From Williamsia faeni (GTDB lineage: Bacteria; Actinomycetota; Actinomycetes; Mycobacteriales; Mycobacteriaceae), in NCBI GenBank assembly GCA_003202005.1, contig QJJF01000001.1, positions 403,099-467,098 on the forward strand: a DNA stretch of 64,000 bases, in the 5' to 3' direction. Shown here piece after piece: positions 12,142 through 55,218 of the stretch. A program made the position numbers and the translations under genes. Position 1 is the stretch's first letter. Each line of letters begins with the position of its first letter. The notes under the pieces were generated by a model. The model was not told the origin of the DNA, did not search any database, and saw nothing but the letters and a program-made list of their open reading frames with translations.

Positions 12142-12192
12142 CAACTCTCCTTCAGCAAAAGACTTTCCCCGGACCCGACTGAGCTGTCTGAT

Positions 12193-31921: not shown

Positions 31922-34533
<2,612 letters not shown>

Positions 34534-34539
34534 GGTCTC

Positions 34540-35019
34540 GTGCTCCCGCAAGAAACACCCAAGGCCCTCAATTCCAAGGCCGTCAGCACCGCGATCAAGC
34601 TCGGGTCCCGTCTCAATACCCGGGTCTACAAGATGAGCGGGGGCCGGTTCGCGTCGAAGTGGCGGGTCGCCGCCGGCTTCAAGAAGCCGGTACCGATCGT
34701 CCTGCTGACAACGATCGGCCGTAAATCCGGGAAAGCCCGCACCGTCCCACTGATCTACCTGCGCGACGGCGCCGACGTCGTGGTGGTCGCCTCGCAGGGC
34801 GGCTTGGCATCGAATCCGGCCTGGTATCTGAACCTGACCGCCAATCCTGACGTCACCATCCAGGAGGGTGCCACGACAACGGTGATGCGGGCCCGTGAGG
34901 CGACCGACCTCGAGCGGCAGCGGCTGTGGCCGCAGCTGGTCGAGCTCTACGCCGATTTCGACACCTACCGGGGCTGGACCGACCGCAAGATCCCGGTGAT
35001 CATCTGCCAACCGAAATGA
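34540..35019 (+). CDS. Deazaflavin (F420)-dependent nitroreductase family protein (Rv3547/Ddn-like)
   Basis: This is a 159-residue protein of the split-barrel F420-dependent quinone reductase/nitroreductase family that includes Ddn of M. tuberculosis. The core LLTTIGRKSGKARTVPLIYL and VASQGGLASNPAWYLNLTANPDVTI is diagnostic; the KSGK region contacts the deazaflavin. The GTG start at 34540 is six bases after fadA5. Ddn reduces menaquinone in mycobacteria and activates nitroimidazoles. Gene order equals Rv3546-Rv3547. The natural substrate in this organism is not shown. Confidence 0.88.
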   Translation: MLPQETPKALNSKAVSTAIKLGSRLNTRVYKMSGGRFASKWRVAAGFKKPVPIVLLTTIGRKSGKARTVPLIYLRDGADVVVVASQGGLASNPAWYLNLTANPDVTIQEGATTTVMRAREATDLERQRLWPQLVELYADFDTYRGWTDRKIPVIICQPK

Positions 35020-37564: not shown

Positions 37565-37606
37565 TATGAAGATGCTCCACAAGACTTCTTGTGGGGCGTC
37601 TTCGTA
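37565..37606. terminator. Bidirectional hairpin between GNAT and LysR genes
   Basis: The arms TATGAAGATGCTCCACAAGA and TCTTGTGGGGCGTCTTCGTA pair along their whole length with three G-U wobbles and a two-base loop. The TATTT that follows and the CGTCTTCGTATTT tail are shared with the hairpin at 1366-1405. Confidence 0.8.
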
Positions 37607-37692
37607 TTTGTGGAGCAGGCCGCCACCGAACCCGGTCCCGCCATACCGGCGTTGAATGGCCGTGGCACACCTCGATCGTGGCCCCGATTCGA

Positions 37693-38676
37693 TCATTGAG
37701 GAGGATGCGGACGGAGGCTTCCGTCCGCCTCCTCACGCCACTGCCGAACCGGAACCGCGCGCGCCGACGGCCAACTGCCCGAGCTGATCAGCCGAGCCAC
37801 TTCGTCCGAGATGATCTCCCCGATCTTGATGGCGAGACCCCGGGGGAGTTCCAGATGCGCGGTTGCCGCCATACCGAGCTGTTGGGTCAGCACCGGAGCG
37901 ACGAGCGGGGCATAGATCAGACGCCCGGCCTCGACTTCGCCCCGGCACGCCGAGAGGGGCAGGATTCCGTATCCGTGGCCGGCGACGATGAGTTCTTTCG
38001 TCACATCGAGCGAGTCCGTCACAAATTTGGCCCGAAGCCTCATCTCGTGTCGCAGGGCCGTGTTCGACAGCGTGTTCCCGATCCCGGTTTGCGAACTCGG
38101 CAAGACCAGAGGGTGGTCAGCGAGTTCGCTGAACAGCACGGGCCGGGCGGGATCCAGGGTCGAGGACAGGCCACCCACCACAAAAAGCTCCTCTGCCAGC
38201 AGGTCGCTGTAGAAGATCCGGTCATCTGTCACGGGGTTCATGATCGCGAGGTCGACAGAGCCTTTGAGCAAATCACCTAACAGCTGGTCTGTATTGGCAA
38301 CTGCCACATGGAAAGTGACGCGGGGAAAGGCAGAACTCAAACTCCCCAGAAGCGGCACCGACAACACCTCGGCCGCCGTTGCCGGCAACCCCAGGAACAG
38401 GCCCCGCTCGATACGCGCCAACGGAGAACCCGCGTATGTGATGGCCCGCTCGAGTTGCCGCAGAGGCACAGCGGTCGCTGAGCGCAGCCGTTCGCCCTCC
38501 TCGGTCAGCACCACGCCGCGCGACGTTCGACGGAACAGAGTGACGCCGAGGTCCTCCTCGAGCAGCCGTATCTGACGACTTAGCGCAGGTTGGGCGATCC
38601 CCGCCACATTCGCGGCCCGCGTCACCGAGCCCTCCTCCGCGACCTGCAGGAAATATTTGAGCCGGTGAGTGTCCAT
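37693..38676 (-). CDS. LysR family transcriptional regulator
   Basis: This is a LysR-type regulator of 327 residues. The N-terminal winged helix spans about residues 1-60 with LKYFLQVAEEGSVTRAANVA and QPALSRQIRLLEEDLGVTLF. The C-terminal two-lobed substrate-binding domain contains GLPATAAEVLSVPLLG and HPLVLPSSQTGIGN. The ATG at 38676 is chosen for homology to the usual MDxxRLKYF start; 28 upstream codons are rejected. It is divergent from a sulfotransferase gene, the usual LysR arrangement, and a T-N11-A palindrome lies between the two. It probably controls the sulfotransferase operon in response to an unknown ligand. Confidence 0.9.
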   Translation of the reverse strand: MDTHRLKYFLQVAEEGSVTRAANVAGIAQPALSRQIRLLEEDLGVTLFRRTSRGVVLTEEGERLRSATAVPLRQLERAITYAGSPLARIERGLFLGLPATAAEVLSVPLLGSLSSAFPRVTFHVAVANTDQLLGDLLKGSVDLAIMNPVTDDRIFYSDLLAEELFVVGGLSSTLDPARPVLFSELADHPLVLPSSQTGIGNTLSNTALRHEMRLRAKFVTDSLDVTKELIVAGHGYGILPLSACRGEVEAGRLIYAPLVAPVLTQQLGMAATAHLELPRGLAIKIGEIISDEVARLISSGSWPSARAVPVRQWREEADGSLRPHPPQ

Positions 38677-38698
38677 AACGTGTCCAGATGTACCAGCC

Positions 38699-38713
38699 AT
38701 GCCAAATCGGCAT
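38699..38713. promoter_or_regulatory. Candidate LysR binding site
   Basis: ATGCCAAATCGGCAT has 5-bp perfect arms and contains the LysR-type T-N11-A core. It lies 23 bp upstream of the LysR start in the 183-bp divergent gap before the sulfotransferase. Confidence 0.55.
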
Positions 38714-38859
38714 GACTGAATGGCGAGATTGATATTGGCGCGCGGTGTGATGGCCGTCATAGCCTTCCTCTAAGGCACACCCATACGGATCCGCGAATGC
38801 AGATGATCTTCATCACTCATCACCACCCATCCGGGGCCGACAGACAGCAGAGGTCAACG

Positions 38860-39987
38860 ATGACTGAAACCGATCAACTACTGGATGTCGCGGTGACGCG
38901 TACCGGGCTCACCGATTTCGGAGACGATTCGTTCCGCGACGGTCTCGATGTCCTGGTCACCTCGCTCCGCGACGAGGCACAGCTCAATGATCTCGGCGAG
39001 AAGGTCATCTACGACCGGATCATCGGGCACCTGGCCCAGCGCCTGCAGGTCGAGGACTGGTACCGCCGCCATCCCGAAATCGACGATGAAATGATCAAGG
39101 ACCCACTGATCGGGATCGGATTGCCGCGCACCGGATCGACCGCGCTTTCGATCCTGCTGGCCCAGGACCCGTCTGTGCGGTACCTGCGCCGATGGGAATC
39201 CGCCACACCGTGTCCGCCGCCGTCGACCATCACCGGAGACGACCCCCGCATACCCAAGGGGATGGACTTCAAAGTCGGATCGCGCCACCATGTTCCGGCC
39301 GACATCCATGGACCGATGGAATGTCTCGAGCTGATGTCGCTGGACTTCAAATCGAGCCTCTTCCAGTCCTTCGCCCAAATACCCACGTATTCGGACTGGT
39401 TTGCGAACACGGCCGATCTGACCACCACGTTCGAGTACCAAAAGCGGGTGATGAAACTCCTCCAATGGGGTGAACCGCAGCGCCCTTGGCGTCTCAAGTG
39501 TCCATCACACGTCCTGTTCCTCGACGAAATCACCAAGGTTTTTCCGGATGCACGGTTTGTCATGACCCACCGTGATCCCACAGACGTGATTCTCTCGGTG
39601 GCCGACCTGTACCGCGACATCATTTCGTCATTCACGGACAAGGTCGACTTGCACTACATCGGGAGGCTGAACGTCGAGCAGTGGTCGCTGGGCATGGATC
39701 GGACACTCGCGTTTCGCGCAGCAGGTGCCGAGGACCGGTTCTATGACATCGATTTCGCCGCTATGCAGAACAATCCCATCGGTGAGGTCGAAGGACTCTA
39801 TCGATGGTTGGGCGAACCCGTCAGCGAACAGTTCAACAGTCAGATGCGCAACTGGTGGACCGAAGCAGCCGCCGTACGCGAACCGAGTTCGCGCGCGGAT
39901 CCGGCGGAATTCGCCATCGACCTCGACCAGCTTCGACCCCGGTTCGCAGAGTATGTCGAGGCAGCACGCCTCTGGACGAAGCACTGA
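38860..39987 (+). CDS. Sulfotransferase family protein (PAPS-dependent)
   Basis: This is a 375-residue sulfotransferase. The 5'-phosphosulfate-binding loop is seen as IGLPRTGSTALSILLAQ (about residues 85-101), and the 3'-phosphate-binding region as FVMTHRDPTDVILSVADLY (about 230-248). Members transfer sulfate from PAPS to hydroxyl groups of small molecules, lipids or steroids. The ATG at 38860 follows AGAGG. It is the first gene of an accessory plus-strand group with a protein of unknown function, divergent from LysR. A hydroxysteroid acceptor would suit the location but is only a guess. Confidence 0.87.
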   Translation: MTETDQLLDVAVTRTGLTDFGDDSFRDGLDVLVTSLRDEAQLNDLGEKVIYDRIIGHLAQRLQVEDWYRRHPEIDDEMIKDPLIGIGLPRTGSTALSILLAQDPSVRYLRRWESATPCPPPSTITGDDPRIPKGMDFKVGSRHHVPADIHGPMECLELMSLDFKSSLFQSFAQIPTYSDWFANTADLTTTFEYQKRVMKLLQWGEPQRPWRLKCPSHVLFLDEITKVFPDARFVMTHRDPTDVILSVADLYRDIISSFTDKVDLHYIGRLNVEQWSLGMDRTLAFRAAGAEDRFYDIDFAAMQNNPIGEVEGLYRWLGEPVSEQFNSQMRNWWTEAAAVREPSSRADPAEFAIDLDQLRPRFAEYVEAARLWTKH

Positions 39988-40013
39988 ATCCCCCAACGTA
40001 GAAAGAGAAATCA

Positions 40014-41081
40014 ATGACTGTTGATCTCACCGGCCGCATCGATCCCGCCCGCGAGAACGTCTTCGCCGTCAAGCCCGAAAACCCGGAAATGCGCGATTCG
40101 GTTAGCTTCTGGGTGCTGGACGACCGCGGTGAAGTGGCATTGCCCCGAATCGGGGTCGAGGCGGTGTCCAACAACTGGGACAACCACGATCTCCAGGTCA
40201 ACGTGGCGCTCGCCGACGGACGCGTCTACCGGCTCCGCGACGGTGGGCCCTCTTGGCCGGTCGAGGACTCCGAGGGTCGCCCGCGGGTGCTCGGTGCGGG
40301 TGGCCTGGGGTTCCAGTGCGTCGATCCGTTCAACAAGTGGACGATGACCTACGAGGGGAAGGCGGTACAAACCACATCCGCCGGTCTGCTGGAGGGCAAG
40401 ATCGACGGCCCCCTAGTCAATGTGAGTTTCCGGGTCGTGGGGAGAATGGCTGCGCCACCGTGGATTCAGGGCTCGCTGCAGGCTGAAGCCGCCGACAAAC
40501 TGAAAGACTCGGTCGAAGGTGGCCTCATGGGAGGCGATCGCTACGAACAGCTGTTCCGCGCCAGTGGCGAACTGACCATCGATAACGAAGAGACACATAC
40601 CTTTTCGGGCAATGGACTCCGCATCCGACGACAGGGCGTCCGCCAGCTCGCAGGTTTCTGGGGCCATTGCTGGCAGTCGGCGGTGTTCCCCAGCGGGCGA
40701 GCCTTTGGATACATCGCGTATCCACCCCGAGCCGACGGGCAGCCGACCTTCAACGAAGGATTCATCTTCTTGGGCGACGGAAAGCTGATCCCGGCACGAA
40801 TCACAAAGGCTCCGTGGCTGTCTCGACTGCGAACCAGGGGTGAAGACGTTTCGCTCACTCTGGAGACCGCCGACGGTGTCTACGAGATCGCCGGCGAGAC
40901 CGCGATCTCGACGCACGATGTGCACCACAGCGACAAGACCAACTCGATGAAGGCGCTCAAGGCAGAGATGCCGGACTTCCCGGTGCTACAACAGGCTTCA
41001 GTTCGCTACACGTGGGACAACGAGCAGACCTACGGGATGCTCGAGCGTTCGATTCCGCGTGAAAAGCTCGAGAGCGACTGA
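40014..41081 (+). CDS. Conserved hypothetical protein, beta-rich, after sulfotransferase
   Basis: This is a 355-residue protein with no signal peptide or membrane segment. It is rich in predicted beta strands with many Trp, Tyr and Gly residues (SFWVLDDRGEVALPRIGVEAVSNNW; WGHCWQSAVFPSGRAFGYIAYPP). The overall pattern recalls lipocalin-like or carotenoid-hydratase/DUF7064-type proteins that handle hydrophobic substrates, but I cannot assign a family firmly. It lies 26 bases after the sulfotransferase gene and is almost certainly co-transcribed with it. It may bind or process the same substrate. Function unknown. Confidence 0.72.
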   Translation: MTVDLTGRIDPARENVFAVKPENPEMRDSVSFWVLDDRGEVALPRIGVEAVSNNWDNHDLQVNVALADGRVYRLRDGGPSWPVEDSEGRPRVLGAGGLGFQCVDPFNKWTMTYEGKAVQTTSAGLLEGKIDGPLVNVSFRVVGRMAAPPWIQGSLQAEAADKLKDSVEGGLMGGDRYEQLFRASGELTIDNEETHTFSGNGLRIRRQGVRQLAGFWGHCWQSAVFPSGRAFGYIAYPPRADGQPTFNEGFIFLGDGKLIPARITKAPWLSRLRTRGEDVSLTLETADGVYEIAGETAISTHDVHHSDKTNSMKALKAEMPDFPVLQQASVRYTWDNEQTYGMLERSIPREKLESD

Positions 41082-41218
41082 CAATCCACACACCAGAGAC
41101 GAACTGAGTCACCGGAGCCTCGACCGAAGTCGCCCTGATTCTCATCGATGGGCGCAAGGGCGTGCTCGAACAGACGCGCCGTCGGACAGAGCAAGGTCCT
41201 CCATTTGGGGTACTCACT

Positions 41219-41237
41219 TTCAGGTCGATTGCCTGAA
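41219..41237. promoter_or_regulatory. Candidate operator upstream of broken TetR gene
   Basis: TTCAGG and CCTGAA form a 6-bp inverted repeat with a 7-bp spacer, 48 bp before the TetR start. The surrounding 41082-41284 is AT-richer than the neighbourhood and holds no supported gene. Confidence 0.35.
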
Positions 41238-41284
41238 TGTTAAGTCCTTCGACTTCACTTTGTCCTGCATGGTTTCATTGTTAG

Positions 41285-41785
41285 ATGTCAATACCCCCAA
41301 TCGGTCGGTCCGCCAAACAGCAACTGGTCCTCACCGCTGAGCGCCTTTTCGCAGTCCACGGCATCGATGGGGTTCCACTACGCCAGATCGGGACCGCTGC
41401 AGGGATGGCCAACAAGTCGGCCGTTCAGTACCACTTCGGCTCAAAAGAAGGCCTGGTCGAGGCCATCCTGGTCAACCGTCTCGACGACCTGGACCGTCGG
41501 CGAGCGCTCCTCCAGGCGCGAACCTCCGCCGACGACCTGCGCGGAGTAGTCGAAGCCCACCATCTACCGCTGATCGAACTGGCCGAAGAACCACAACTGC
41601 GACGCCCAAAAGGAATGGCCACTCGTTGCCGAAAGTTGGCCCCGCGGGCGATTTACACCGGCCCCTGAGTATGACGAGTTCAGCAGGTCATCGCCGACAG
41701 AGCCGCACCTCCGTCACCCAAACCGAATCTCTGGTCAAACAACACCAGACGCCTGGCGCGCCGGCTGACGCTGGGCGTCCACTGA
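41285..41785 (+). pseudogene. TetR family regulator, frameshifted
   Basis: The first 105 or so codons encode a good TetR DNA-binding domain (IGTAAGMANKSAVQYHFGSKE) and the first helices of the ligand domain. The frame then ends at 41666-41668. In the +1 frame the text EWPLVAESWPRGRFTPAPEYDEFS (read in two pieces) continues the protein from about 41610 to 41680. A second shift back to the original frame gives QQVIADRAAPPSP and LWSNNTRRLARRLTLGVH, ending at 41783-41785. Two frameshifts are needed to restore a protein, which would still be short for TetR. It is either a decaying gene or carries sequencing errors. If translated as is, it yields a 127-residue DNA-binding fragment. Confidence 0.75.
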
Positions 41786-41824
41786 AATCACATCCCGAAT
41801 CTGAACCAGAAAGAAGGTAACGAG

Positions 41825-42655
41825 ATGGAATCCCTTACGAAGCGGACCGTGGTCATCACGGGCGCAGCCAGCGGCATCGGCCGCAGCACTGCAATGTCAG
41901 CGGCGAGAAAAGGCGCAAACGTCGTTGTCGCCGACTGTGACCATCGCGGAGCAGAAGCGGTCGCCACAAGCATTCGCGCAACTGGCGCGGGAGCAATATC
42001 CGTACAGATCGACGTGGGCGACGACGCTGCATTCGAAGTACTTCGGGATGCGACGCTTGCGGAGTTCGGAAGCGTGGACGTCATCATGAATAATGCCGGT
42101 GTGCTCACCAAAGGGCTCCCGGAATACATTCCGGTGGCGGAATGGGAACGCGTAATCAATATAAACTTGATGTCCGTGGTCCGCAGCAACTCCGTGTTCC
42201 TGCCTCTTCTCCTTGAACAGGGAACCGGCCATATGGTGAACACGGCGTCATTCGCCGGCCTGTTCGGTTACTCATTCGACCGCCTCCCCTATTCCGCTTC
42301 GAAGGCCGCGATCATCCAACTCTCCGAAGGACTCGCTTTCTATTTGAAACCCAAGGGCATTGGTGTCACGGTCTTATGTCCGGGACCGGTTGCGACAAAC
42401 ATTGCTTCAACGATCAAGTCTTTTGGCCCCGACACCGGCACCCGAGGACCGGGTGCCCAGTTCAAGGTCAAATCAGCGGACGAGGTCGGAGAGATGGTTG
42501 TGGACGCCATACTCTGCAATCGCTTCATGCTTCAAACCGATGACCAGGTTGTTCCTATTTTGCAGAGTCGAGCAAGCGACTGGGATTCTTTCATCGATAC
42601 AACAATTTCCTCATGGGATACCCAATCGACCAAACCGACAGGAACAGGTAAATGA
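41825..42655 (+). CDS. Short-chain dehydrogenase/reductase (accessory)
   Basis: This is a classical SDR of 276 residues with TGAASGIGRSTAMSA, DVIMNNAGVL, MVNTASFAGLFG and the catalytic YSASKAA. The ATG is preceded by AGAAAGAAGGTAACG. The gene is visibly less GC-rich than the sterol genes around it (for example AATCAATATAAACTTGATG), which suggests separate ancestry. The closest functional idea is oxidation of a hydroxyl group on a steroid or other lipid. It ends the accessory block and is convergent with the conserved minus-strand genes. The hairpin arms GTGCTCG/CGAGCAC (42659-42693) separate them. Confidence 0.83.
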   Translation: MESLTKRTVVITGAASGIGRSTAMSAARKGANVVVADCDHRGAEAVATSIRATGAGAISVQIDVGDDAAFEVLRDATLAEFGSVDVIMNNAGVLTKGLPEYIPVAEWERVININLMSVVRSNSVFLPLLLEQGTGHMVNTASFAGLFGYSFDRLPYSASKAAIIQLSEGLAFYLKPKGIGVTVLCPGPVATNIASTIKSFGPDTGTRGPGAQFKVKSADEVGEMVVDAILCNRFMLQTDDQVVPILQSRASDWDSFIDTTISSWDTQSTKPTGTGK

Positions 42656-42658
42656 CCA

Positions 42659-42693
42659 GTGCTCGCGTCTAGGCCTCCGCATCTTCCGAGCAC
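42659..42693. terminator. Weak hairpin between convergent genes
   Basis: The 7-bp arms GTGCTCG and CGAGCAC are separated by 21 bases, between the accessory SDR stop and the minus-strand NTF2-like stop. Confidence 0.4.
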
Positions 42694-42698
42694 CACGC

Positions 42699-43082
42699 TT
42701 ATGTACCGCGTGTCTGGTGCCGCCGCGGAATTCCAAACCTCGCGACGATCTTGAGGATCCGGCCAGTCTCGTCGAACTCGATACTCTCGGTCACCAAAGC
42801 GCTCAGCCGCAACGGCTTCGGATGCACGTGCACATAGAACGTGCTGTGGACGACACCGTCGGTGACTGTTGCGGTGAAGTCACCGATGGTGTGGATCAAA
42901 CGGAATTGCGGTCCACGAGCCAGACCGCGCCGCAAGTGGTTTCCGTTGCGACCGGTTTTGAGGCCCATCTCGATACGGACGCAGTCGGGATGGAACGGCA
43001 CCCCCGACGGATCATGACTGACCAGCGCATCGACGTACGACTTCGCCGCTGCGATCAGCTGATCATCGGTGGGTGCCGTCAT
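42699..43082 (-). CDS. NTF2-like / DUF8021-type protein
   Basis: This is a 127-residue protein of NTF2-like layout: an N-terminal helix (TDDQLIAAAKSYVDALVSHD), a central loop with FHPDCVRIEMGLKTGRN and a curved beta sheet (FRLIHTIGDFTATVTDGVVHSTFYVHV). It starts inside the stop of the SDR gene (ATGA overlap), so the two are translationally coupled. Proteins of this fold next to SDRs in steroid clusters may act as isomerases, dehydratases or binding partners. No catalytic acid can be assigned. The function is unknown. Confidence 0.75.
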   Translation of the reverse strand: MTAPTDDQLIAAAKSYVDALVSHDPSGVPFHPDCVRIEMGLKTGRNGNHLRRGLARGPQFRLIHTIGDFTATVTDGVVHSTFYVHVHPKPLRLSALVTESIEFDETGRILKIVARFGIPRRHQTRGT

Positions 43083-44813: not shown

Positions 44814-44852
44814 CCACGCTCCGTTCCGAGTCCGCACTATGAGTGTTAAGGT

Positions 44853-44870
44853 ACCAAGCAATTGCTTGGT
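44853..44870. promoter_or_regulatory. KstR2-type operator between Rv3549c-like gene and echA20
   Basis: ACCAAGCAATTGCTTGGT is an 18-bp perfect palindrome. Two overlapping 14-mers in and next to it each match AnCAAGnnCTTGnT with one mismatch. It sits in the divergent promoter of the ring C/D genes. Confidence 0.72.
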
Positions 44871-44904
44871 TGGTCTACACCAGGACAGTACGCGAGGAGC
44901 ATTG

Positions 44905-45678
44905 ATGCCGATCACCACATCTACGGTCGAACCCGGGATTGTCACGGTTACCGTCGACTTTCCGCCGGTCAACGCCCTGCCTTCGGCGGCATGGTTTGAA
45001 CTCGGGGACGCAATAATCGCCGCCGGACAACGTCTCGACACCCACGTGGTGATCCTGCGAGCCGAGGGCCGGGGGTTCAATGCCGGCGTCGACATCAAGG
45101 AAATGCAGGCCACCGAGGGCTACGACGCCCTGATCGCCGCCAACCGCGGCTGCGCGGCCGCCTTTGCCGCGGTGTACGACTGCGCGGTCCCGGTGATCGT
45201 CGCCGTGAACGGATTCTGTGTGGGCGGCGGCATCGGCCTCGTCGGCAACGCGGATGTGATCGTCGCCTCCGACGATGCGGTCTTCGGGCTGCCCGAAGTC
45301 GACCGCGGAGCCCTCGGCGCCGCCACCCATCTGGCCCGGCTCGTGCCTCAGCACACGATGCGCACCCTGTACTTCACCGCGCAGAACGTCACCGCGCAAC
45401 AACTCCTGCACTTCGGATCGGTTCAGCGGGTGGTGCCGCGCGATCAACTCGACGAGGCCGCGCTGGAGATCGCCCGCAAGATCTCCGCGAAGGACACCCG
45501 CGTGATCCGGGCGGCCAAGGAGGCCATCAACGGCATCGATCCGGTGGATGTGAAGACCAGCTACCGGCTCGAACAGGGTTACACCTTCGAACTGAATCTT
45601 GCCGGTGTCGCCGACGAACACCGCGACGCCTTCGTCGAAACCGGCAAGCCGAAATCCGCAACAACCAAGGGGGCTTGA
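44905..45678 (+). CDS. echA20: EchA20, crotonase-fold ring D hydrolase
   Basis: This is a crotonase-fold protein of 257 residues like Rv3550. In M. tuberculosis EchA20 hydrolyses ring D of the HIEC-CoA intermediate. Here the oxyanion-hole region reads FNAGVDIKEMQ. The first hydratase glutamate is absent (GGGIGLVGNADV), while the second is kept (LPEVDRGALG), which fits a hydrolase rather than a hydratase. The ATG at 44905 follows GAGGAGC. It starts the plus-strand operon echA20-ipdA-ipdB-ipdC, with six bases to ipdA, under the KstR2-type palindrome. Confidence 0.9.
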   Translation: MPITTSTVEPGIVTVTVDFPPVNALPSAAWFELGDAIIAAGQRLDTHVVILRAEGRGFNAGVDIKEMQATEGYDALIAANRGCAAAFAAVYDCAVPVIVAVNGFCVGGGIGLVGNADVIVASDDAVFGLPEVDRGALGAATHLARLVPQHTMRTLYFTAQNVTAQQLLHFGSVQRVVPRDQLDEAALEIARKISAKDTRVIRAAKEAINGIDPVDVKTSYRLEQGYTFELNLAGVADEHRDAFVETGKPKSATTKGA

Positions 45679-45684
45679 GCCCAG

Positions 45685-46575
45685 ATGGCAACCGACAAGA
45701 CCAGCAGCCTCGACGACATCATCGGCGAGATCAGCAGCGGCATGACCATCGGCATCGGCGGCTGGGGTTCGCGCCGTAAACCGATGGCCCTGGTGCGAGC
45801 ACTCGCGCGCTCCTCCGTCACCGACCTCACGATCGTCACCTACGGCGGTCCCGACCTCGGATTGCTCTGCGCGGCAGGCAAAGTCAGCAAGGCCTACTAC
45901 GGGTTCGTCTCACTGGACTCACCGCCGTTCTACGATCCCTGGTTTGCCAAGGCCCGGACCACCGGCGCGATCACCGTGCGCGAGATGGACGAAGGCATGG
46001 TCAAGTGTGGTCTCGAGGCCGCCGCCGCCCGCCTGCCGTTCCTGCCGATCCGGGCCGGCCTCGGCTCCGACGTCCCCAACTTCTGGGACGGAGAACTGCG
46101 CACCGTCACCTCGCCCTACCCCGACGACGACGGGCGCCATCAGACGCTGATCGCCATGCCCGCACTGCAACTCGATGCGGCATTCGTCCACCTCGACCTC
46201 GCCGACCGTCATGGCAACGCCGCATACACCGGCATCGACCCCTACTTCGACGACCTCTACTGCGCCGCGGCCACGCGACGCTACCTCGAAACCGACCGCC
46301 TGGTCACCACCGAGGAGCTGGTGGAAAAGGTTCCGGTACAACGTCTTCTGCTCAACCGGCTGAACGTCGACCGCGTGGTCCACACGCCGAACGGCGCGCA
46401 TTTCACGTTTGCCGGCGAGTACGGCCGCGACGAAGCCTTCCAGCAGTTCTACGCCGAGTCGGCCAAAACCCCCGAAGCCTGGCAAGCGTTTTCCGATCGG
46501 TTCCTGACCGTGCCCGAAGACGTCTATCAGACCGAGGTCGACAAGTGGAACGCCGAACGAGAGGACGCACAGTGA
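45685..46575 (+). CDS. ipdA: IpdA, subunit of the COCHEA-CoA hydrolase
   Basis: This is a class I CoA-transferase-like alpha subunit of 296 residues like Rv3551. IpdA and IpdB form the hydrolase that opens the last steroid ring (COCHEA-CoA) rather than transferring CoA. It has the glycine-rich MTIGIGGWGSRRKPMALV near the N-terminus and long matches to the family through VHLDLADRHGNAAYTGIDPYFDDLY. Its stop overlaps the GTG start of ipdB, which suits an obligate heteromer. It is second in the KstR2-controlled operon. Confidence 0.9.
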   Translation: MATDKTSSLDDIIGEISSGMTIGIGGWGSRRKPMALVRALARSSVTDLTIVTYGGPDLGLLCAAGKVSKAYYGFVSLDSPPFYDPWFAKARTTGAITVREMDEGMVKCGLEAAAARLPFLPIRAGLGSDVPNFWDGELRTVTSPYPDDDGRHQTLIAMPALQLDAAFVHLDLADRHGNAAYTGIDPYFDDLYCAAATRRYLETDRLVTTEELVEKVPVQRLLLNRLNVDRVVHTPNGAHFTFAGEYGRDEAFQQFYAESAKTPEAWQAFSDRFLTVPEDVYQTEVDKWNAEREDAQ

Positions 46576-47378
46576 CAACAGGACACGCAGGGAGCACCCC
46601 CGACACCTCGGCAGATGTGACCCGCGCCGAGTACTGCGTGATCGCCTGCGCCGAAATCTTCTCCGGCGCAGGAGAAACCATGGCGTCCCCGATGGCGACG
46701 ACCCCGTTGATCGGTGCCCGGCTGGCACGACTGACAACCGAGCCCGATCTGCTGATCACCGATGGCGAGGCACTGATCTTCGCCGACACCCCGGCCGTCG
46801 GGAAGTCCGGCCCCATCGAGGGATGGATGCCGTTCCGCAAGGTCTTCGACGTCGTCGCCTCCGGGCGGCGCCATGTTGTGATGGGCGCCAACCAGATCGA
46901 CCGGTACGGCAATCAGAACCTCTCCGCATTCGGTCCGCTCCAACATCCGACGCGACAGATGTTCGGCTCCCGTGGGGCTCCGGGCAATACGATCAATCAC
47001 CCGACCAGTTACTGGGTCGCCAAACACTCGGCCCGGGTCTTCGGCGACGTCGACGTGGTCTCCGGAGTCGGTTACGACAAGATCGACGCCGACAACCCGG
47101 CCTTCAAATACCTGAACATTCCCCGGGTGGTCACCAACCTCGGCGTCTTCGATTTCGAAGGGCCCGACCACACCATGCGTGCGGTCTCGCTGCACCCCGG
47201 CGTCGACGCCGCAGAGGTCGCGGAGAACACGGGCTTCGAGGTCGCAGGCTTGGCCGATGCCGGGGTCACCCGCGCACCGAACGCCGAAGAGTTGCGTCTG
47301 ATCCGCGAGGTCATCGACCCGAAGGGCCTGCGGGAGAAGGAAGTCAAGCCGGTATCGACCATCAGGACAGCACGATGA
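46572..47378 (+). CDS. ipdB: IpdB, subunit of the COCHEA-CoA hydrolase
   Basis: This is the beta subunit of the IpdAB ring hydrolase, 268 residues like Rv3552. It has the CoA-transferase beta fold with CAEIFSGAGETMASPMATTP, EALIFADTPAVGKSGPIEGWM and FGSRGAPGNTINHPTSYWV. The start is the GTG at 46572 that overlaps the ipdA stop; the much longer open frame upstream is a shadow of ipdA. The next gene starts inside its stop (ATGA), so three genes are coupled. Confidence 0.9.
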   Translation: MTTGHAGSTPDTSADVTRAEYCVIACAEIFSGAGETMASPMATTPLIGARLARLTTEPDLLITDGEALIFADTPAVGKSGPIEGWMPFRKVFDVVASGRRHVVMGANQIDRYGNQNLSAFGPLQHPTRQMFGSRGAPGNTINHPTSYWVAKHSARVFGDVDVVSGVGYDKIDADNPAFKYLNIPRVVTNLGVFDFEGPDHTMRAVSLHPGVDAAEVAENTGFEVAGLADAGVTRAPNAEELRLIREVIDPKGLREKEVKPVSTIRTAR

Positions 47379-48445
47379 CTGCTGCGCCTATTGCCACCCG
47401 GTTCACCGAACTGGTCGGCGTCGACTACCCGATCGTCCAGACCGGCATGGGCTGGGTGTCGGGACCATCGCTGACGTCGGCGACGTCCAACGCAGGTGGA
47501 CTCGGGATCCTCGCATCGGCAACGATGACCTACCCCGAACTCGAAGCAGCCATCGCCAAGACAAAATCCCTGACCACCAAGCCGTTCGGCGTCAACCTGC
47601 GGGCCGATGCGACCGATGCACCCGAGCGGATCGACCTGCTCATCCGTGAAAAGGTCAAGGTCGCGTCGTTTGCGTTGGCGCCCAAACCCGACCTGATCGC
47701 GAAGCTGAAAGACCATGGGATCGTGGTCATCCCGTCGATCGGTGCCGCCAAGCACGCCGTGAAGGTCGCCTCGTGGGGTGCCGATGCGGTGATCGTCCAG
47801 GGTGGTGAGGGCGGCGGGCACACCGGCCCGGTCGCAACAACCCTGTTGCTGCCGAGCGTGCTCGATGCGCTGGGCCCCGACGGGATCCCGGTGGTCGCGG
47901 CCGGTGGATTCTTCGACGGTCGCGGACTCGTCGCGGCGCTGTCCTACGGCGCCGAGGGAGTCGCGATGGGAACCCGCTTCCTGCTGACCTCCGACAGTGC
48001 CGTGCCGGACGCGGTCAAGGCTCAGTATCTCGAGCGGGGCCTCGGCGACACCGTCGTCTCGACGAAGGTCGACGGCATGCCCCACCGGGTCCTGCGCACC
48101 GAGTTGGTCGACAAGCTCGAATCCGGCAACGGCGCAACCGCTCTGGCGGCAGCGGCCAAGAACGCCAACAGGTTCAAGCGGATGACCGGGATGAAGTGGT
48201 CGACGATGCTCAAGGACGGCCGCACGATGCGCAAGTCGGGCGAACGGACGTGGCAACAGGTGATCATGGCCGGCAACACCCCGATGTTGTTGCGCGCCGG
48301 GCTCGTCGAGGGCAATACCGAAGCCGGGGTCCTGGCGTCAGGTCAGGTGGTCGGCATGATCAACGACCTGCCCAGCTGCGACGAACTCATCCAGCAGATC
48401 ATGACCCAGGCCCGCGACCGCCTCGACCAGCTCGGCAAGTTCTAG
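47375..48445 (+). CDS. ipdC: IpdC, flavin-dependent CoA-thioester oxidoreductase
   Basis: This is an FMN TIM-barrel protein of the nitronate-monooxygenase/enoyl reductase-like family, 356 residues, like Rv3553. IpdC acts on hydroxylated indane-CoA intermediates late in ring C/D degradation. Visible motifs are YPIVQTGMGWVSGPSLTSATSNAGGLGILA, the flavin-binding QGGEGGGHTGPVAT and the phosphate site AAGGFFDGRGLVAALSYGAEGVAMG. The ATG at 47375 overlaps the ipdB stop. It ends the operon and runs to within four bases of the convergent DUF389 gene, leaving no room for a separate terminator. Confidence 0.9.
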   Translation: MTAAPIATRFTELVGVDYPIVQTGMGWVSGPSLTSATSNAGGLGILASATMTYPELEAAIAKTKSLTTKPFGVNLRADATDAPERIDLLIREKVKVASFALAPKPDLIAKLKDHGIVVIPSIGAAKHAVKVASWGADAVIVQGGEGGGHTGPVATTLLLPSVLDALGPDGIPVVAAGGFFDGRGLVAALSYGAEGVAMGTRFLLTSDSAVPDAVKAQYLERGLGDTVVSTKVDGMPHRVLRTELVDKLESGNGATALAAAAKNANRFKRMTGMKWSTMLKDGRTMRKSGERTWQQVIMAGNTPMLLRAGLVEGNTEAGVLASGQVVGMINDLPSCDELIQQIMTQARDRLDQLGKF

Positions 48446-48449
48446 CCGC

Positions 48450-49430
48450 TCACGGTTCGCGTTGCCACCGGTGGCCGGGCTCCCGTCCGGCCAGCAAGCG
48501 GGCGCGATACGCCGACACCCTCGTCCAGACCACCTGTTGCACGGCCAGCGTCATCCAGCCTGCGACTGCCATCCCGGACAGGTTGACCACCAGCTGGAGA
48601 GTACTCCCGACGATCTCCTCGCGGACTCCGAAGGCCAGGCCCAGCGCGACGTTTCCGGCTGCCGGAATGGTGGTCACCGAGATGAAGACGCCTGACAGAC
48701 CACCGAGTCGGGACGACGTCAGCGACAGTACCCCGGCGACCCCGGCGACCACCGCGACGATGAATGACCACTTGTCCGGGGTGTAGATGAATGCAGTATC
48801 CGGCCGGGCCTCGGTCACGTCGGTCTCCGTCACCCAGCCGAGCCCGCGCGCGATCAGGGCCGCGATGGTCGTGGCCACGATGCTGAGCGTAAATCCACCG
48901 ACGAGTGTCGCCAGTGCACGCCCGAGCAGCGTCATCCGCCGCCGTACCAGCGCGACTCCGAGCGCCGCGACAGCCCCGAACTCGGGCCCGAGGACCATCG
49001 CACCGATGAGCAGGATGCTCGAATCAAGGACGATGGCGATCGCAGCCAACAGCGTCGCCAGAACCATGAAACTGGCGAAGATCCAGTTGAATTCGGAATC
49101 GTCGTATGCCTTTTGGGTCACCTCGGCCCAGACGACAGCATCGGCGCTCGCCCCGGGCGTGGCCCGCTCTGCTTCCAGCCCCTTCTCAGATATCCAGGTG
49201 GGTACCTGGGCCAGGTGGATGGTGCCGAAGCGATGGATATCCAGTACACGGAGTGCATCGATGACCTCGTTCGCGCCCTCGCGCGCGATATCGGCCTCGA
49301 TCACATCGCCTTCGGGTTTCATCGACGCGCCACGATAGACGGTCACGTTGCTGACCGCGGGGTCCTCACAGAGGAGTTCTGAGATGCGGTCGGAGAATTC
49401 ACCCGGAGCGATGACCCGTATCTGCAGCAT
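48450..49430 (-). CDS. DUF389 family membrane protein
   Basis: This is a 326-residue integral membrane protein of the DUF389 (TIGR00341-type) family. The N-terminal soluble part (about residues 1-105) begins MLQIRVIAPGEFSDRISELL. It is followed by about six hydrophobic segments, starting with WIFASFMVLATLLAAIAIVLDSSILLIGAMVLGPEFGAVAAL, split here by a break near residue 140. The start is the ATG at 49430, with GGAAG upstream. It has no known place in sterol catabolism and is absent from this position in M. tuberculosis. The function is unknown. Confidence 0.85.
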   Translation of the reverse strand: MLQIRVIAPGEFSDRISELLCEDPAVSNVTVYRGASMKPEGDVIEADIAREGANEVIDALRVLDIHRFGTIHLAQVPTWISEKGLEAERATPGASADAVVWAEVTQKAYDDSEFNWIFASFMVLATLLAAIAIVLDSSILLIGAMVLGPEFGAVAALGVALVRRRMTLLGRALATLVGGFTLSIVATTIAALIARGLGWVTETDVTEARPDTAFIYTPDKWSFIVAVVAGVAGVLSLTSSRLGGLSGVFISVTTIPAAGNVALGLAFGVREEIVGSTLQLVVNLSGMAVAGWMTLAVQQVVWTRVSAYRARLLAGREPGHRWQREP

Positions 49431-49474
49431 TCCGACAGCTTCCCACGCCACGCCACGCCAACACCGTCACTCGA

Positions 49475-50071
49475 TCAGCGTGGCACGATCCCGTCGAGCA
49501 CCACGCTCAAGTACTGCTCGGCGACCTGGCGGGCCGTCCGATCGCCACCGGGCCGGTACCAGCGCACCGCGACCCAGACCGTATCGCGCATGAAGCGGTA
49601 CACAAGTTCGGTGTCGAGGTCGGGGCGGAAACTTCCGTCGGCCATGCCCTTGGTCAGCACATCGCTCCACAGGGTGCGGAACTCGACGTTGCGATCCTGG
49701 ATGTACGAGAACCGATCCTGGCTCGCGAGCCGCTTCGCCTCGTCCTGATAGATGGCCACGGCCGAATGGTCGCGGTCGATACTCTCGAACGACGCAATCA
49801 CCAAGCCGGTCAGCGTCTCTCGTGCGGGCAGCCCCGCCTCGACCACCTGGTGGTACGTATCGAAGAGCGAATCCAGGAACGACCTCAGGATCTCGTCGAC
49901 CATCGACTCCTTGGAGTCGAAATGGTGATACAGACTCCCCGACAGGATGCCGGCCGAATCGGCGATGTCACGAACCGTCGTGGTGCGGACCCCGCGCTCG
50001 GCGAACAACCCACTCGCCACCGCCAGCAACTCATCGCGCCGCGTCACCCGGGTACGCTCACCCGAGGTCAT
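49475..50071 (-). CDS. kstR2: KstR2, TetR-type repressor of ring C/D catabolism
   Basis: This is a TetR repressor of 198 residues that closely follows M. tuberculosis KstR2 (Rv3557c), including FAERGVRTTTVRDIADSAGI, GSLYHHFDSKESMVDEIL, IYQDEAKRLASQDRFSYIQDRN and VRWYRPGG. KstR2 releases DNA when it binds HIP-CoA, the product of FadD3. The ATG at 50071 gives the N-terminal length of the mycobacterial protein; a GTG at 50092 is an alternative. A perfect KstR2 operator lies 33 bp upstream, so the gene is probably autoregulated. Confidence 0.92.
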   Translation of the reverse strand: MTSGERTRVTRRDELLAVASGLFAERGVRTTTVRDIADSAGILSGSLYHHFDSKESMVDEILRSFLDSLFDTYHQVVEAGLPARETLTGLVIASFESIDRDHSAVAIYQDEAKRLASQDRFSYIQDRNVEFRTLWSDVLTKGMADGSFRPDLDTELVYRFMRDTVWVAVRWYRPGGDRTARQVAEQYLSVVLDGIVPR

Positions 50072-50103
50072 CTCACTTCGTCTCGCTGCCACCCGCTCAG
50101 CCT

Positions 50104-50117
50104 AGCAAGCGCTTGGT
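50104..50117. promoter_or_regulatory. KstR2 operator upstream of kstR2
   Basis: AGCAAGCGCTTGGT is a full match to AnCAAGnnCTTGnT, placed in the kstR2 promoter (autoregulation). Confidence 0.85.
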
Positions 50118-50206
50118 TGCTAAGCCCGCTTGCCGCCCGAGCTCACACGCACCCGCCGCCTCCGACTGCCGGCATCGGAGGCGGCGGGTGGCGCCGAGAG
50201 TGAGCC

Positions 50207-51718
50207 CTACTTGTGGCCGAGCTTCTTACGAGCGCGATTGTTGAAGAACTTCCACAGCTTCAGCTGCATGTTGGTGTTCTTGGTGTCTTTCGCCGTGAAC
50301 GGTGCCGACATCATCTCCGACACCGAGACCTTCAGGGTCGAGAACGCCACCGCGCGGGTGTGCGAGAACGTGTCAAATCCGTATTTGCCGTGGTAGCCGC
50401 CCATCCCGCTCTTGCCGACGCCACCGAAGGGCAGGTCCGGACCGAACATGTTGATGGCGAAGTCGTTGCCGTTTATCGAACCCGACTGAGTCGAATCTGC
50501 GAGCTTGTAGAAGCGCTCGTTGCGGTCGCCGTGCCAGTACATCGTCAAAGGATGCGGGTGGCTGGTGATGTGCGTGATCGCCTCGTCGAGTTCGCGGTAC
50601 GGGTAGACGGTCAGCACCGGACCGAAGACCTCGTCCTCTTCGATCTTCATCCCGGCCTTGACCCCGGTGAGCAGCGTCGGCGGAATCTTGCGGACGTCGG
50701 CGTCGGGCAGCTTCTCTCCGGCAGGGATCACCTGATGCTTGGTGGCGCCCAGTGATTCGGCATCGTCGATGAGATCGACGATCCGCAGGAAGTTCTTCTC
50801 GTTGATGGTCGAGGTGTACTGCGGGTTGTCTTTGATCGACGGCAGGTTGGTGCGCCAGCGGGCCAACACCCGGTCGGTGAACTCACCGAGCTTGGCCTCG
50901 GGCACCCACACGTAGTCGGGGCACAGGCACACCTGACCGCCGTTGACGAGGCGGGCGTCGGCAATCCGGGTGGCCGCCTTCGCGATGTCGGCATCGACGT
51001 CGACGACAACCGGGTTCTTGCCACCGAGTTCGAGGGTGACCGGGACCAGGTTCTTCGCGGCCTCGGTGGCCACCGAGGCACCCACCTCGGGAGAGCCGGT
51101 GAAGAACATGTGGTCGACCTTGAGCTTCGCGAAATCCGAGCCGCCACCATGGGCACTGGTCAGCACGGCGAGCTCTTCGAGATCGAAGTAGCGGGGAGCA
51201 TGCTTTGCCAGGACCGCAGTGGTTTTCGCGGTGACCGACGACGGACGGATCAGCACCCGGTTACCGGCGGCGAACGCCGATCCGGCCGGAACGATCGTCA
51301 GGTTCAGCGGGAAGTTCCACGGACCCATGATGCCGACGACACCCTTGGGGTCGTGGCGGACCTCCTGGCGGAAACCCGCACGGGCCAGCACCTTGCCCGG
51401 CGTCGAGGTCTCCATCCACTTGGTGACGTGCTTTTTCTGGTGCGCCAGGTCGACCATGCAACCGGCGATGTCGGCGGCGATCGACAGCTCGCGCGGACGT
51501 GATCCGAAGTCCGCGGCGAGCGCCTCTGCGAGTTCCTCTGCGTTGTCGAGGAGCAGCGCTTGCAGGCGGACGATCCGATCGATGCGGGTCTGGGCATCAG
51601 GGATTCCGTCGCGCAAGAACGCCGCGCGCTGCAGTTCTAGCAACGCCTGCAAAGTCAGAGTGTCCGCCGATTTCTCCTCTCGGACCTGCTTCTTTGCCAC
51701 ATCTGCCGGGTTTGTCAT
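50207..51718 (-). CDS. Aldehyde dehydrogenase, coniferyl-aldehyde-type
   Basis: This is an aldehyde dehydrogenase of 503 residues in the class that includes coniferyl and long-chain aldehyde dehydrogenases (shorter N-terminus and a hydrophobic C-terminal region). It shows GPWNFPLNLTIVPAGSAFAAGN, FFTGSPEVGASV, the glutamate motif LELGGKNPVVVD and the catalytic cysteine motif LVNGGQVCLCPDYVWVPE. The ATG at 51718 is chosen; 58 more codons of open frame lie in the intergenic region. It lies between kstR2 and fadA6, where M. tuberculosis has other genes. Propionaldehyde or a steroid-derived aldehyde is possible but unproven. Confidence 0.88.
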   Translation of the reverse strand: MTNPADVAKKQVREEKSADTLTLQALLELQRAAFLRDGIPDAQTRIDRIVRLQALLLDNAEELAEALAADFGSRPRELSIAADIAGCMVDLAHQKKHVTKWMETSTPGKVLARAGFRQEVRHDPKGVVGIMGPWNFPLNLTIVPAGSAFAAGNRVLIRPSSVTAKTTAVLAKHAPRYFDLEELAVLTSAHGGGSDFAKLKVDHMFFTGSPEVGASVATEAAKNLVPVTLELGGKNPVVVDVDADIAKAATRIADARLVNGGQVCLCPDYVWVPEAKLGEFTDRVLARWRTNLPSIKDNPQYTSTINEKNFLRIVDLIDDAESLGATKHQVIPAGEKLPDADVRKIPPTLLTGVKAGMKIEEDEVFGPVLTVYPYRELDEAITHITSHPHPLTMYWHGDRNERFYKLADSTQSGSINGNDFAINMFGPDLPFGGVGKSGMGGYHGKYGFDTFSHTRAVAFSTLKVSVSEMMSAPFTAKDTKNTNMQLKLWKFFNNRARKKLGHK

Positions 51719-51850
51719 TGCGCGAACCTCCACGAGCCGTTGGCCATTTGCGGGACTTTGGAACGAAAATCCAAGTCTGTCGCAAACCAGTATGCGCCAA
51801 CTCACACCGGGCGCGCCACTGCCATCCTCCAACACACGCCGAAGCCACCA

Positions 51851-51896
51851 GAATTTGCGCCGCCCCCCGGCAATTGCAGGTGGGCGGCGCAAATTC
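51851..51896 (-). terminator. Terminator-like hairpin after fadA6
   Basis: The 15-bp perfect arms GAATTTGCGCCGCCC and GGGCGGCGCAAATTC are separated by 16 bases and lie 18 bp past the fadA6 stop on the minus strand. The rest of 51719-51850 shows no gene or operator that I can support. Confidence 0.75.
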
Positions 51897-51913
51897 GAGT
51901 GGATGGTGGCGGG

Positions 51914-53068
51914 TTAGAGCCGTTCGATGATCGTGACGTTGGCGGTGCCGCCGCCCTCGCACATCGTCTGGAGGCCGTAGCGGCCGCCGGTGCGTTCGAG
52001 TTCATGCAGCAGTGTCGCGAAGAGTTTTGCGCCGGTGGCGCCGAGTGGATGTCCGAGCGCGATGCCGCCGCCGTTGGGATTGACCTTGGCCGGGTCGGCG
52101 CCGGTCTCCTTGAGCCAGGCCAGGACGACCGGGGCGAAGGCCTCGTTGATCTCGACGACGTCGATGTCGTCGATGCTCAGGCCGGCCTTGGCGAGGGCGT
52201 ATTTGGTGGCGGGGATGGGCGCCGACAACATCATCACCGGGTCGTCGCCGCGCACCGAGATGTGGTGGATCCGGGCGCGAGGGGTCAGGCCGTATTCCTT
52301 GAGTGCTGATTCCGAGACGACCAGCGACGCGGATGCGCCGTCGCAGATCTGGGAGGCGACCGCCGCGGTCAGCGACGACCCTTCCGCCAGCACCTTGAGA
52401 CCGGCCATCTTTTCCAGCGACGTCTCGCGCGGGCATTCGTCGACCAGGCAGTCACCCAGGGGCACGGTCTCGGCGGCGAACCGGCCTTCGGTGATTGCCC
52501 CCAGTGCCCGCTGATGCGACTGCAGGGCCCACTGCTCCATGTCTTCGCGGCTGATGTCCCACTTCTTGGCCATCATGTCGGCACCGACGAACTGGGAGAT
52601 CTCGGCGTCTCCGAACCTCTCGTCCCATCCCACCGACCCGGCGAAGGGGCTGGTGAATCCGTACTCGGCGCCGGCGATCATCGCCGCCGAGATCGGGATG
52701 GCACTCATGTTCTGAACCCCACCGGCGACAATCACATCCTGCGTACCGCTCATCACGGCTTGTGCCGCGAAATGGATTGCCTGCTGCGATGATCCGCACT
52801 GACGGTCGATCGTGGTGCCCGGGACGCCGAGAGGCAACCCGGCGGCGAGCCACGCCGTCCGGGCGATGTTGCCGGCCTGCGGGCCCACGGTGTCGACGCA
52901 GCCGAAGATCACGTCGTCGACCACGTTCGGGTCGATGCCGTTGCGCTCGATGACGGCCTTGATGACATGGGCGCCCATGTCAGCCGGGTGCACCTTGGCC
53001 AGCGATCCGTTGCGCTTGCCCACCGGGGTCCGCAGGGCGTCGACGATATAGGCCTGGGGTGAAGACAT
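51914..53068 (-). CDS. fadA6: Thiolase FadA6 (steroid ring C/D pathway)
   Basis: This is a thiolase of 384 residues like Rv3556c, which acts late in degradation of the ring C/D remnant. The nucleophile cysteine is in IDRQCGSSQQAIH (about residue 91), the histidine in GIALGHPLGATGAKL and the second cysteine in TMCEGGGTANV, so the full catalytic set is present. The ATG follows AAGGAGC. It is third in the minus-strand unit fadE30-ipdF-fadA6, 27 bases after ipdF. The operon is read from the KstR2-controlled promoter near 55.2 kb. Confidence 0.9.
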   Translation of the reverse strand: MSSPQAYIVDALRTPVGKRNGSLAKVHPADMGAHVIKAVIERNGIDPNVVDDVIFGCVDTVGPQAGNIARTAWLAAGLPLGVPGTTIDRQCGSSQQAIHFAAQAVMSGTQDVIVAGGVQNMSAIPISAAMIAGAEYGFTSPFAGSVGWDERFGDAEISQFVGADMMAKKWDISREDMEQWALQSHQRALGAITEGRFAAETVPLGDCLVDECPRETSLEKMAGLKVLAEGSSLTAAVASQICDGASASLVVSESALKEYGLTPRARIHHISVRGDDPVMMLSAPIPATKYALAKAGLSIDDIDVVEINEAFAPVVLAWLKETGADPAKVNPNGGGIALGHPLGATGAKLFATLLHELERTGGRYGLQTMCEGGGTANVTIIERL

Positions 53069-53095
53069 GTTGTGCTCCTTGAAATATGAAGGGTG

Positions 53096-55158: not shown

Positions 55159-55175
55159 GCGAACCAGACTAGCCG

Positions 55176-55218
55176 ACCAAGCACTTGCTTGGGTACGTCA
55201 CCCAAGCAAGTGCTAGGT
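55176..55218. promoter_or_regulatory. Paired KstR2 operators in the fadE30/fadD3 divergent promoter
   Basis: ACCAAGCACTTGCT (55176-55189) is a full match to AnCAAGnnCTTGnT. AGCAAGTGCTAGGT (55205-55218) has one mismatch. The two sites lie in mirror image, and the inner 15-bp arms AGCACTTGCTTGGGT and ACCCAAGCAAGTGCT (55180-55194 and 55200-55214) form a perfect inverted repeat with a 5-bp spacer. Confidence 0.87.

Follow-up and report, generated by a model that had tools for sequence, protein, structure and literature searches.

The window analysed here, a stretch of 64,000 nucleotides from Williamsia faeni whose coordinates are used throughout, contains a block of genes between a GNAT gene and a conserved open reading frame (ORF), orf127. 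The block consists of a LysR regulator, a sulfotransferase (STF) of the type that uses 3'-phosphoadenosine 5'-phosphosulfate (PAPS), a beta-rich DUF7064-like protein after it (BETA), a TetR fragment and a short-chain dehydrogenase/reductase (SDR). That the block is a lineage-specific insertion is well supported, and STF and BETA are a conserved gene pair. We give an even chance to the reading that the block is an acquired PAPS-dependent cassette which dehydrates its substrate by sulfation and subsequent elimination, hitchhiking in a sterol region. The LysR-STF-BETA core would then derive from a widespread, self-regulated cassette family, and the decayed TetR and the foreign SDR would be a second piece.

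The insertion and its composition

The window was compared with eight other genomes of the genus, from which the regions around the Rv3548c-like gene were taken. All eight have fadA5, ddn, phoD, GNAT, orf127, Rv3548c, Rv3549c, echA20 and ipdA in the same order and without the block. The spacing between GNAT and orf127 is 5,151 bp in the window, compared to 21 to 101 bp between the aligned ends in all eight congeners. The insert reaches from approximately 37617, just past a hairpin, to approximately 42700, in the tail of orf127, and an equivalent hairpin between GNAT and orf127 was recognized by eye in seven of the eight congeners. A preliminary description of this DNA had reported about 5 kb of extra genes between conserved flanks, and both the genes and their order were as described there. 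The synteny check came out the same way, as the block was found in none of the congeners with the same sterol locus and the interruption is thus lineage-specific. The statement that the block splits the sterol locus held only in part. The interruption is real relative to the eight congeners, but no operon is cut, because the block lies in the convergent gap between two transcription units, with the hairpin; a split operon was rejected on these grounds. Nor are phoD and GNAT additions within the genus, as had been suggested, since both stand at this place in all eight congeners. The block as a conserved part of the sterol locus was rejected as well, being missing from every congener with that locus.

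No long flanking direct repeat was found around the insert, only a 15-nucleotide pair, 87% alike, with one copy inside LysR, and there was no recombinase among the insert's genes. The distribution of BETA was patchy: it was found in one of nine genomes of the genus (its own only), in 2 of the 121 genomes sampled from the family and in 23 of 394 from the class, the own genome being counted throughout. Sequences 79-86% similar to the hairpin after GNAT (37565-37616) occur at four other places in the genome, of which two overlap, on opposite strands.

The block is composite, LysR-STF-BETA being mildly and the TetR remnant and SDR strongly atypical in composition. The G+C content at third codon positions (GC3) was 0.74-0.76 in LysR, STF and BETA, 0.675 in the TetR piece and 0.618 in the SDR, compared with a mean of 0.807 (sd 0.033, minimum 0.730) in 27 other genes of the window, a chosen and not exhaustive set. 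The first three genes are therefore still within the normal range, at its lower end, and the TetR piece and the SDR alone fall outside it, in line with the earlier remark that the SDR is less GC-rich than its neighbours. The frameshift described for TetR was likewise seen: the first 127 amino acids are open, and TetR-like sequence continues out of frame. Its nearest observed relative, from genome G214, has a frame of 229 amino acids and is located near a relative of the SDR (59%); the TetR piece is 80% identical to it over 98 amino acids. The SDR of the window had matches at E <= 1e-60 in at least 8 of 251 family genomes, the own included, with ten candidates scored per genome, and its local identity to SDRs from the loci of the 80 BETA relatives introduced below did not exceed 40%. 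TetR and SDR together look like a second, separately acquired piece, as judged from these similarities.

The sulfotransferase and its partner

Relatives were collected by a profile-seeded scan of genome contigs; of the 98 BETA relatives confirmed, the best 80 were used. STF and BETA were adjacent on the same strand in 63 of the 80 loci, from Mycobacterium to Steroidobacter, and an STF relative was present somewhere in the locus in 68. As STF came first in 60 of the adjacent pairs and BETA in three, the pairing survives a change of order. A second, partly independent class-wide sample comprised 28 loci of a larger match set with 1.5 kb flanks, the own locus and G099 being left out. Here STF was adjacent to BETA in 22, and in 16 of the 22 loci whose DNA was not already represented among the 80. 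In the STF and BETA trees, built from 66 loci and the window after two of the 68 STF loci had been dropped for a short best aligned piece, the window was placed in the same 28-member clade (supports 0.96 and 0.79). The distances in the two trees correlated with r 0.95, which partly reflects shared ancestry. Most named members of this clade (23/27) have LysR. In the whole set, 54 of the 80 loci have their own LysR or TetR, namely a LysR at least 54% identical to that of the window in 24 (one of them in two pieces) and a TetR of another kind in 30. An SDR is present between LysR and STF in 23 of the 24 LysR-type loci; it is absent in the window and in L036 from Gordonia amarae.

The identification of STF as a PAPS-type sulfotransferase, already proposed in the preliminary description, and with it a sulfation step, is well supported by sequence comparison. 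The match to PF13469 (6.8e-40) is full-length, covering positions 1-215 of 216 in the profile, and some relatives stand alongside PAPS-making genes. The closest solved structures are 2z6v (5.2e-61) and 2zq5 (3.2e-46), which we take to be Mycobacterium avium Stf9 and Stf1, respectively. The segments GLPRTGS (87-93) and THRD (236-239) were conserved in at least 97% of 67 STF sequences, the window's included; GLPRTG (87-92), K213 and H237-R238 reached the same level and were conserved in the 2zq5-like outgroup as well. The conserved segments are presumably those binding PAPS. The NCBIfam scan was uninformative for STF, BETA and orf127.

BETA itself had no match in Pfam or NCBIfam at 0.001. Within its family, 24 of 30 members, the window among the 30, matched DUF7064 (PF23212) at E <= 1, the best with 8.9e-07; the match of L081 reached 23.2 bits compared to a gathering cut-off of 24.7. 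The structure models had a pLDDT of 94, and 25-phosphosteroid lyase (25-PSL) ranked first among the structural matches listed for two models made from different family members. Among 41 BETA sequences, the arginines at 45, 176, 203, 206, 210, 239 and 345 were invariant, and these seven would suit an anionic ester. Comparison with a viral fold library gave one clear match, a giant-virus protein without known function.

Genes for PAPS synthesis (CysD, CysNC) follow the pair in some loci of Nocardia, Gordonia, Rhodococcus and Frankiaceae. Downstream of the pair, Gordonia amarae (L036) has an LLM-type oxidoreductase, then a PF01507 protein and a GTPase-APS kinase (CysNC; APS, adenosine 5'-phosphosulfate), and Nocardia vinacea (L063) has an SDR, a PF01507 protein, CysNC and then a protein of the inositol-phosphatase family (PF00459). 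We read the PF01507 protein, from its family, as CysD because it stands directly before CysNC; the PF00459 protein is, by family and order, probably CysQ. CysD together with CysNC was present in 6 of the 80 loci and at least one of CysD, CysNC and CysQ in 9. CysD was located downstream in 11 of the 28 loci of the second sample, or 10 of 22 when loci with the same DNA as the 80 are set aside. In 13 genomes of the family of Frankia sp. EI5c there were one to seven APS-kinase matches per genome, fragments and weak matches counted. The ten genomes with CysD after the BETA locus had two to seven each (one full match and a fragment in G511), which fits extra copies that may be dedicated to the cassette. 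Two CysNC-type genes are present elsewhere in the window genome, and likewise in all eight congeners, so that PAPS can be supplied in trans. Their arrival with the block was rejected, since each congener has two APS-kinase matches and this genome the same two and a third, weak one.

Some loci deviate from the common layout. L161 and L162 retain BETA-CysD-CysNC, but their sulfotransferase shares only 25-26% identity with STF; an SDR lies in between, and the sulfating enzyme may have been swapped. The STF of Rhodococcus sp. JCM 9791 (L037:7866-9741) is in several pieces, with an SDR between STF and BETA and with CysNC also in pieces. The STF-BETA operon of Steroidobacter agaridevorans (L067:11896-16916) extends further to include two LLM-type oxidoreductases and a radical-SAM protein whose C-terminal region is of the CofH kind (F420 chromophore synthase-like). 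LysR-type and TetR-type cassettes were found together in single genomes, on different contigs, in the locus pairs L034 and L035, L013 and L057, and L020 and L062.

Regulation and relation to the sterol locus

The stretch between LysR and STF contains an operator-like element (Table 1). Its alignment includes L010 and L016, which are the same DNA, and omits L036, because the LysR of that locus lies elsewhere. A 17-bp palindrome at 38698-38714 was rejected as the LysR site, being absent from 24 other LysR rows.

Sites for the two cholesterol regulators were searched for with matrices built from 10 published KstR sites (PMC1995591) and 7 published KstR2 sites (PMC3068626), the cut-offs being uncalibrated. 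KstR-like sites were found in the window at 12191, 12280, 13406, 13757, 22387, 27808, 33228 and 33306 (best scores 14.7-25.8), and KstR2-like sites at 44852, 50099, 55171 and 55200 (best scores 18.8-31.8). The block had no such site, its best scores being 11.8 for KstR and 7.9 for KstR2; a stray non-promoter match at 11443 scored 12.7. As far as operators show, the block would thus lie outside the cholesterol regulons, and the idea that it carries KstR or KstR2 sites of its own was rejected after the matrix scan. The insert is situated at the boundary of two regulons, the KstR-like sites (12191-33306) ending at fadA5 and the KstR2-like ones (44852-55200) beginning at the echA20-like gene.

The loci of the 80 relatives were further searched with baits from the sterol locus. 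PhoD, GNAT, orf127 and IpdA had no match in any of them, FadA5 and EchA20 nothing above 38% identity, and Ddn nothing above 42%. The Rv3548c-like bait exceeded 37% only in L071 from Mycolicibacterium arenosum, with 53% at a distance of approximately 6.5 kb, within the 10 kb examined on that side. Close sterol-locus flanks were thus found in none of the 80.

The window genome has a further sulfotransferase on another contig, a 2zq5-like gene (4.2e-164) near kshA, HsaA-like and HsaC-like genes. This second classical cholesterol region (L108, 106400-126300) comprises DmpG-like, KshA, HsaA-like and HsaC-like genes, an unmatched ORF of 415 amino acids, an SDR, the 2zq5-like sulfotransferase, an MFS protein and a TetR. 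The unmatched ORF, next to the Stf1-like gene, is Rv3531c-like by position, and a comparison gave no support for BETA being related to its product (hhalign probability 0.8%, with a single sequence on the Rv3531c-like side). M. tuberculosis Stf1 (Rv3529c) is, like STF, a PF13469-type sulfotransferase near ring-degradation genes. However, the Stf1 type is only 30-32% identical to the STF of the window, has other neighbours and is present in the window genome as a separate copy.

The preliminary description had raised the possibility of sulfated sterol intermediates, a step that it called undescribed for this pathway. A sulfotransferase among cholesterol genes is in itself not new: Rv3529c is listed in a table of mycobacterial cholesterol genes, there as a conserved hypothetical protein (PMC6429209), and is named sulfotransferase Stf1 elsewhere (PMC8882603). 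From the PF13469 match, the PAPS genes by relatives and the match of the partner to a steroid C-O lyase, sulfation of an intermediate is likely and the substrate may be steroid-like. A role of the block in this cholesterol pathway is, however, not supported, in view of the missing KstR and KstR2-like sites, the eight congeners and the 80 relatives' loci. The position inside a sterol locus is no evidence of a role in sterol catabolism.

The features of the block and its surroundings are collected in Table 1. To the left of the block, fadA5 and the ddn-like gene are followed by phoD, named from its sequence, and then GNAT; to the right of orf127 are an Rv3548c-like SDR, an Rv3549c-like SDR and an EchA20-like enoyl-CoA hydratase. 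The Rv labels, taken from gene order, are our presumed assignments.

Table 1. Features of the block and its flanks, in window coordinates
Feature	Position	Strand	Remarks
LysR regulator	37693-38676	-	PF00126 9.4e-24, PF03466 3.6e-30; start codon at 38676, longer start possible at 38760
Operator-like element, LysR-STF intergenic	38691-38739		Mean 71% identity (55-78%) to 23 LysR-type cassette rows, 39-40% on either side
STF, PAPS-type sulfotransferase	38860-39987	+	PF13469 6.8e-40; alternative start 38797
BETA, predicted AttH/25-phosphosteroid-lyase fold, proposed sulfate-ester lyase	40014-41081	+	
TetR N-terminal half, decayed gene	41285-41668	+	PF00440 2.6e-10
SDR oxidoreductase	41825-42655	+	PF00106 9e-47
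orf127, conserved right-hand neighbour outside the insert	42699-43082	-	Directly after GNAT in 8/8 congeners
Hairpin (inverted repeat), end of GNAT gene	37568-37603		Left limit of the insertion just after, ~37617
fadA5, left flank	33181-34533		Steroid 3-ketoacyl-CoA thiolase NF005889, 2.3e-212
ddn-like F420 protein, left flank	34540-35019		PF04075
KstR-like site upstream of fadA5, last before the insert	33228-33247	+	Score 21.7; weaker one at 33306
KstR2-like site between Rv3549c- and echA20-like genes, first after the insert	44852-44875	-	Score 31.8

Possible function and alternatives

For the acquired cassette we infer elimination of sulfate by BETA, a steroid-like substrate and LysR as activator. 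LysR would sense the substrate or an intermediate and activate STF-BETA through the conserved operator at 38691-38739. STF would then move sulfate from PAPS onto a hydroxyl of a bulky hydrophobic, steroid- or terpenoid-like substrate, and BETA would bind the sulfate ester and eliminate sulfate to give an alkene, a dehydration in two steps. SDRs, and in other hosts also LLM-type oxidoreductases, may act before and after the pair.

By analogy, the known kind of chemistry behind the cassette would be activate-then-eliminate dehydration, with sulfate in the role that phosphate has for 25-hydroxysteroid kinase and 25-phosphosteroid lyase. The likeness is to the system of Sterolibacterium denitrificans (PMC8449060; PMC11061730; PDB 9fzn, 9g4c and 9g2i by title). 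The cassette differs from it in having a sulfotransferase and PAPS instead of a kinase and ATP. BETA and 25-PSL are alike in fold, but are 18% identical when aligned by structure and show no match at the sequence level. Furthermore, STF and BETA are a tight gene pair, whereas the 2021 paper reported no lyase candidate near the kinase gene. A precedent for sulfation creating a leaving group is found in curacin biosynthesis (PMC5577590). As outlined in that source, the sulfotransferase-thioesterase chain termination of curacin and haliamide likewise sulfates a hydroxyl before an olefin is formed; there, however, a domain pair of a polyketide synthase works with decarboxylation, and the cassette has separate proteins and another elimination partner. 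The enzymes with AttH/CrtC-like folds (2ich, Fsa2, CghA, Phm7, kievitone hydratase) share the fold of BETA with 9-16% identity, and their reactions are other ones or none is known.

In a wider and more tentative reading, to which we give somewhat less than an even chance, STF-BETA would be a widespread and so far undescribed system for dehydration or deoxygenation at the expense of PAPS. STF would activate an unreactive steroid or terpenoid hydroxyl, and a lyase of the AttH/25-PSL fold would expel sulfate to form the alkene. Dedicated CysD-CysNC-CysQ would recycle PAPS in high-flux hosts, and the system, spread by gene transfer, would be the sulfur counterpart of the kinase/25-PSL tandem. In the literature searched, mainly the openly accessible part and as far as its text was available, no description was found of a sulfotransferase paired with BETA's protein family.

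Several observations weigh against elimination by such a cassette. AttH (2ich), which has no known function, trails 25-PSL by only 1.1 Z units in one BETA model and 0.5 in the other, 25-PSL is not among Foldseek's own first 50 for BETA, and BETA profiles match no 25-PSL chain at the sequence level at E <= 10. The AttH/25-PSL fold also serves cyclases and hydratases, and elimination is therefore not dictated by it. PAPS genes adjoin only a minority of cassettes, and none adjoins that of the window. STF is near BETA but separated or on the other strand in 5 of the 80 loci, and was not detected in the examined stretch of 12 (L047, L057, L072, L073, L074, L078 and L085-L090), although a fragment appears in L057 at a looser cut-off; in the second sample there was no STF within 1.5 kb of BETA in 4 of 28. 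Finally, the usual SDRs of the cassette are missing from the window host, so that the cassette may be incomplete or dying.

Alternatively, the cassette may yield a sulfated end product, STF making a sulfated lipid, terpenoid or quinone for retention or export and BETA preparing the scaffold as a cyclase, hydratase or carrier. In favour of this are the loci without a detected STF (12/80) and the fold family of BETA, which includes Diels-Alderases and kievitone hydratase; mycobacteria are also known to have sulfated lipids and menaquinones. Still, the first-ranked structural match of BETA is a lyase of an activated ester, and the annotated loci are flanked by SDRs and LLM-type oxidoreductases, with an aldehyde dehydrogenase in two Steroidobacter loci. 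We regard a sulfated end product as an unlikely alternative. The broken TetR, the missing SDRs and the foreign composition of the remaining SDR could instead mark a composite island in decay and without a role at present; we regard this as improbable, since the frames of LysR, STF and BETA are open and intact, the operator-like element has been preserved, and STF and BETA retain the residues conserved in their families.

If STF sulfonated toxic alcohols or phenols for export under LysR, with BETA as a binding protein and the place in the sterol region due to chance, the regulators of their own in 54 of the 80 loci and the patchy distribution in family (2/121) and class (23/394) would be accounted for. 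However, a partner with an enzyme fold and many invariant polar residues, and PAPS-making genes adjoining in some hosts, suggest pathway flux, and detoxification appears quite improbable to us. Most improbable is the reading of the preliminary description, in which STF adds a sulfation step to the cholesterol pathway of this organism. It has in its favour the place between fadA5 and the Rv3548c-like genes, the steroid-lyase fold of the partner and Steroidobacter among the hosts; it is opposed by the lack of a KstR- or KstR2-like site in the block, the block's absence from eight of eight congeners with the same locus, the occurrence of relatives outside sterol loci, and a LysR and operator-like element of its own.

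The insertion as such is ordinary and the gap it occupies unremarkable; the enzyme pair it carried is far from ordinary. Dehydration of unactivated alcohols is a hard step in the breakdown of steroids and terpenoids. If sulfation and elimination by STF and BETA hold true, this would explain the pairing of a sulfotransferase with a DUF7064-like protein in various environmental bacteria, some with extra PAPS-making genes; a protein family that lacks an assigned function would gain one, and a simple biocatalyst for alkenes would be at hand.

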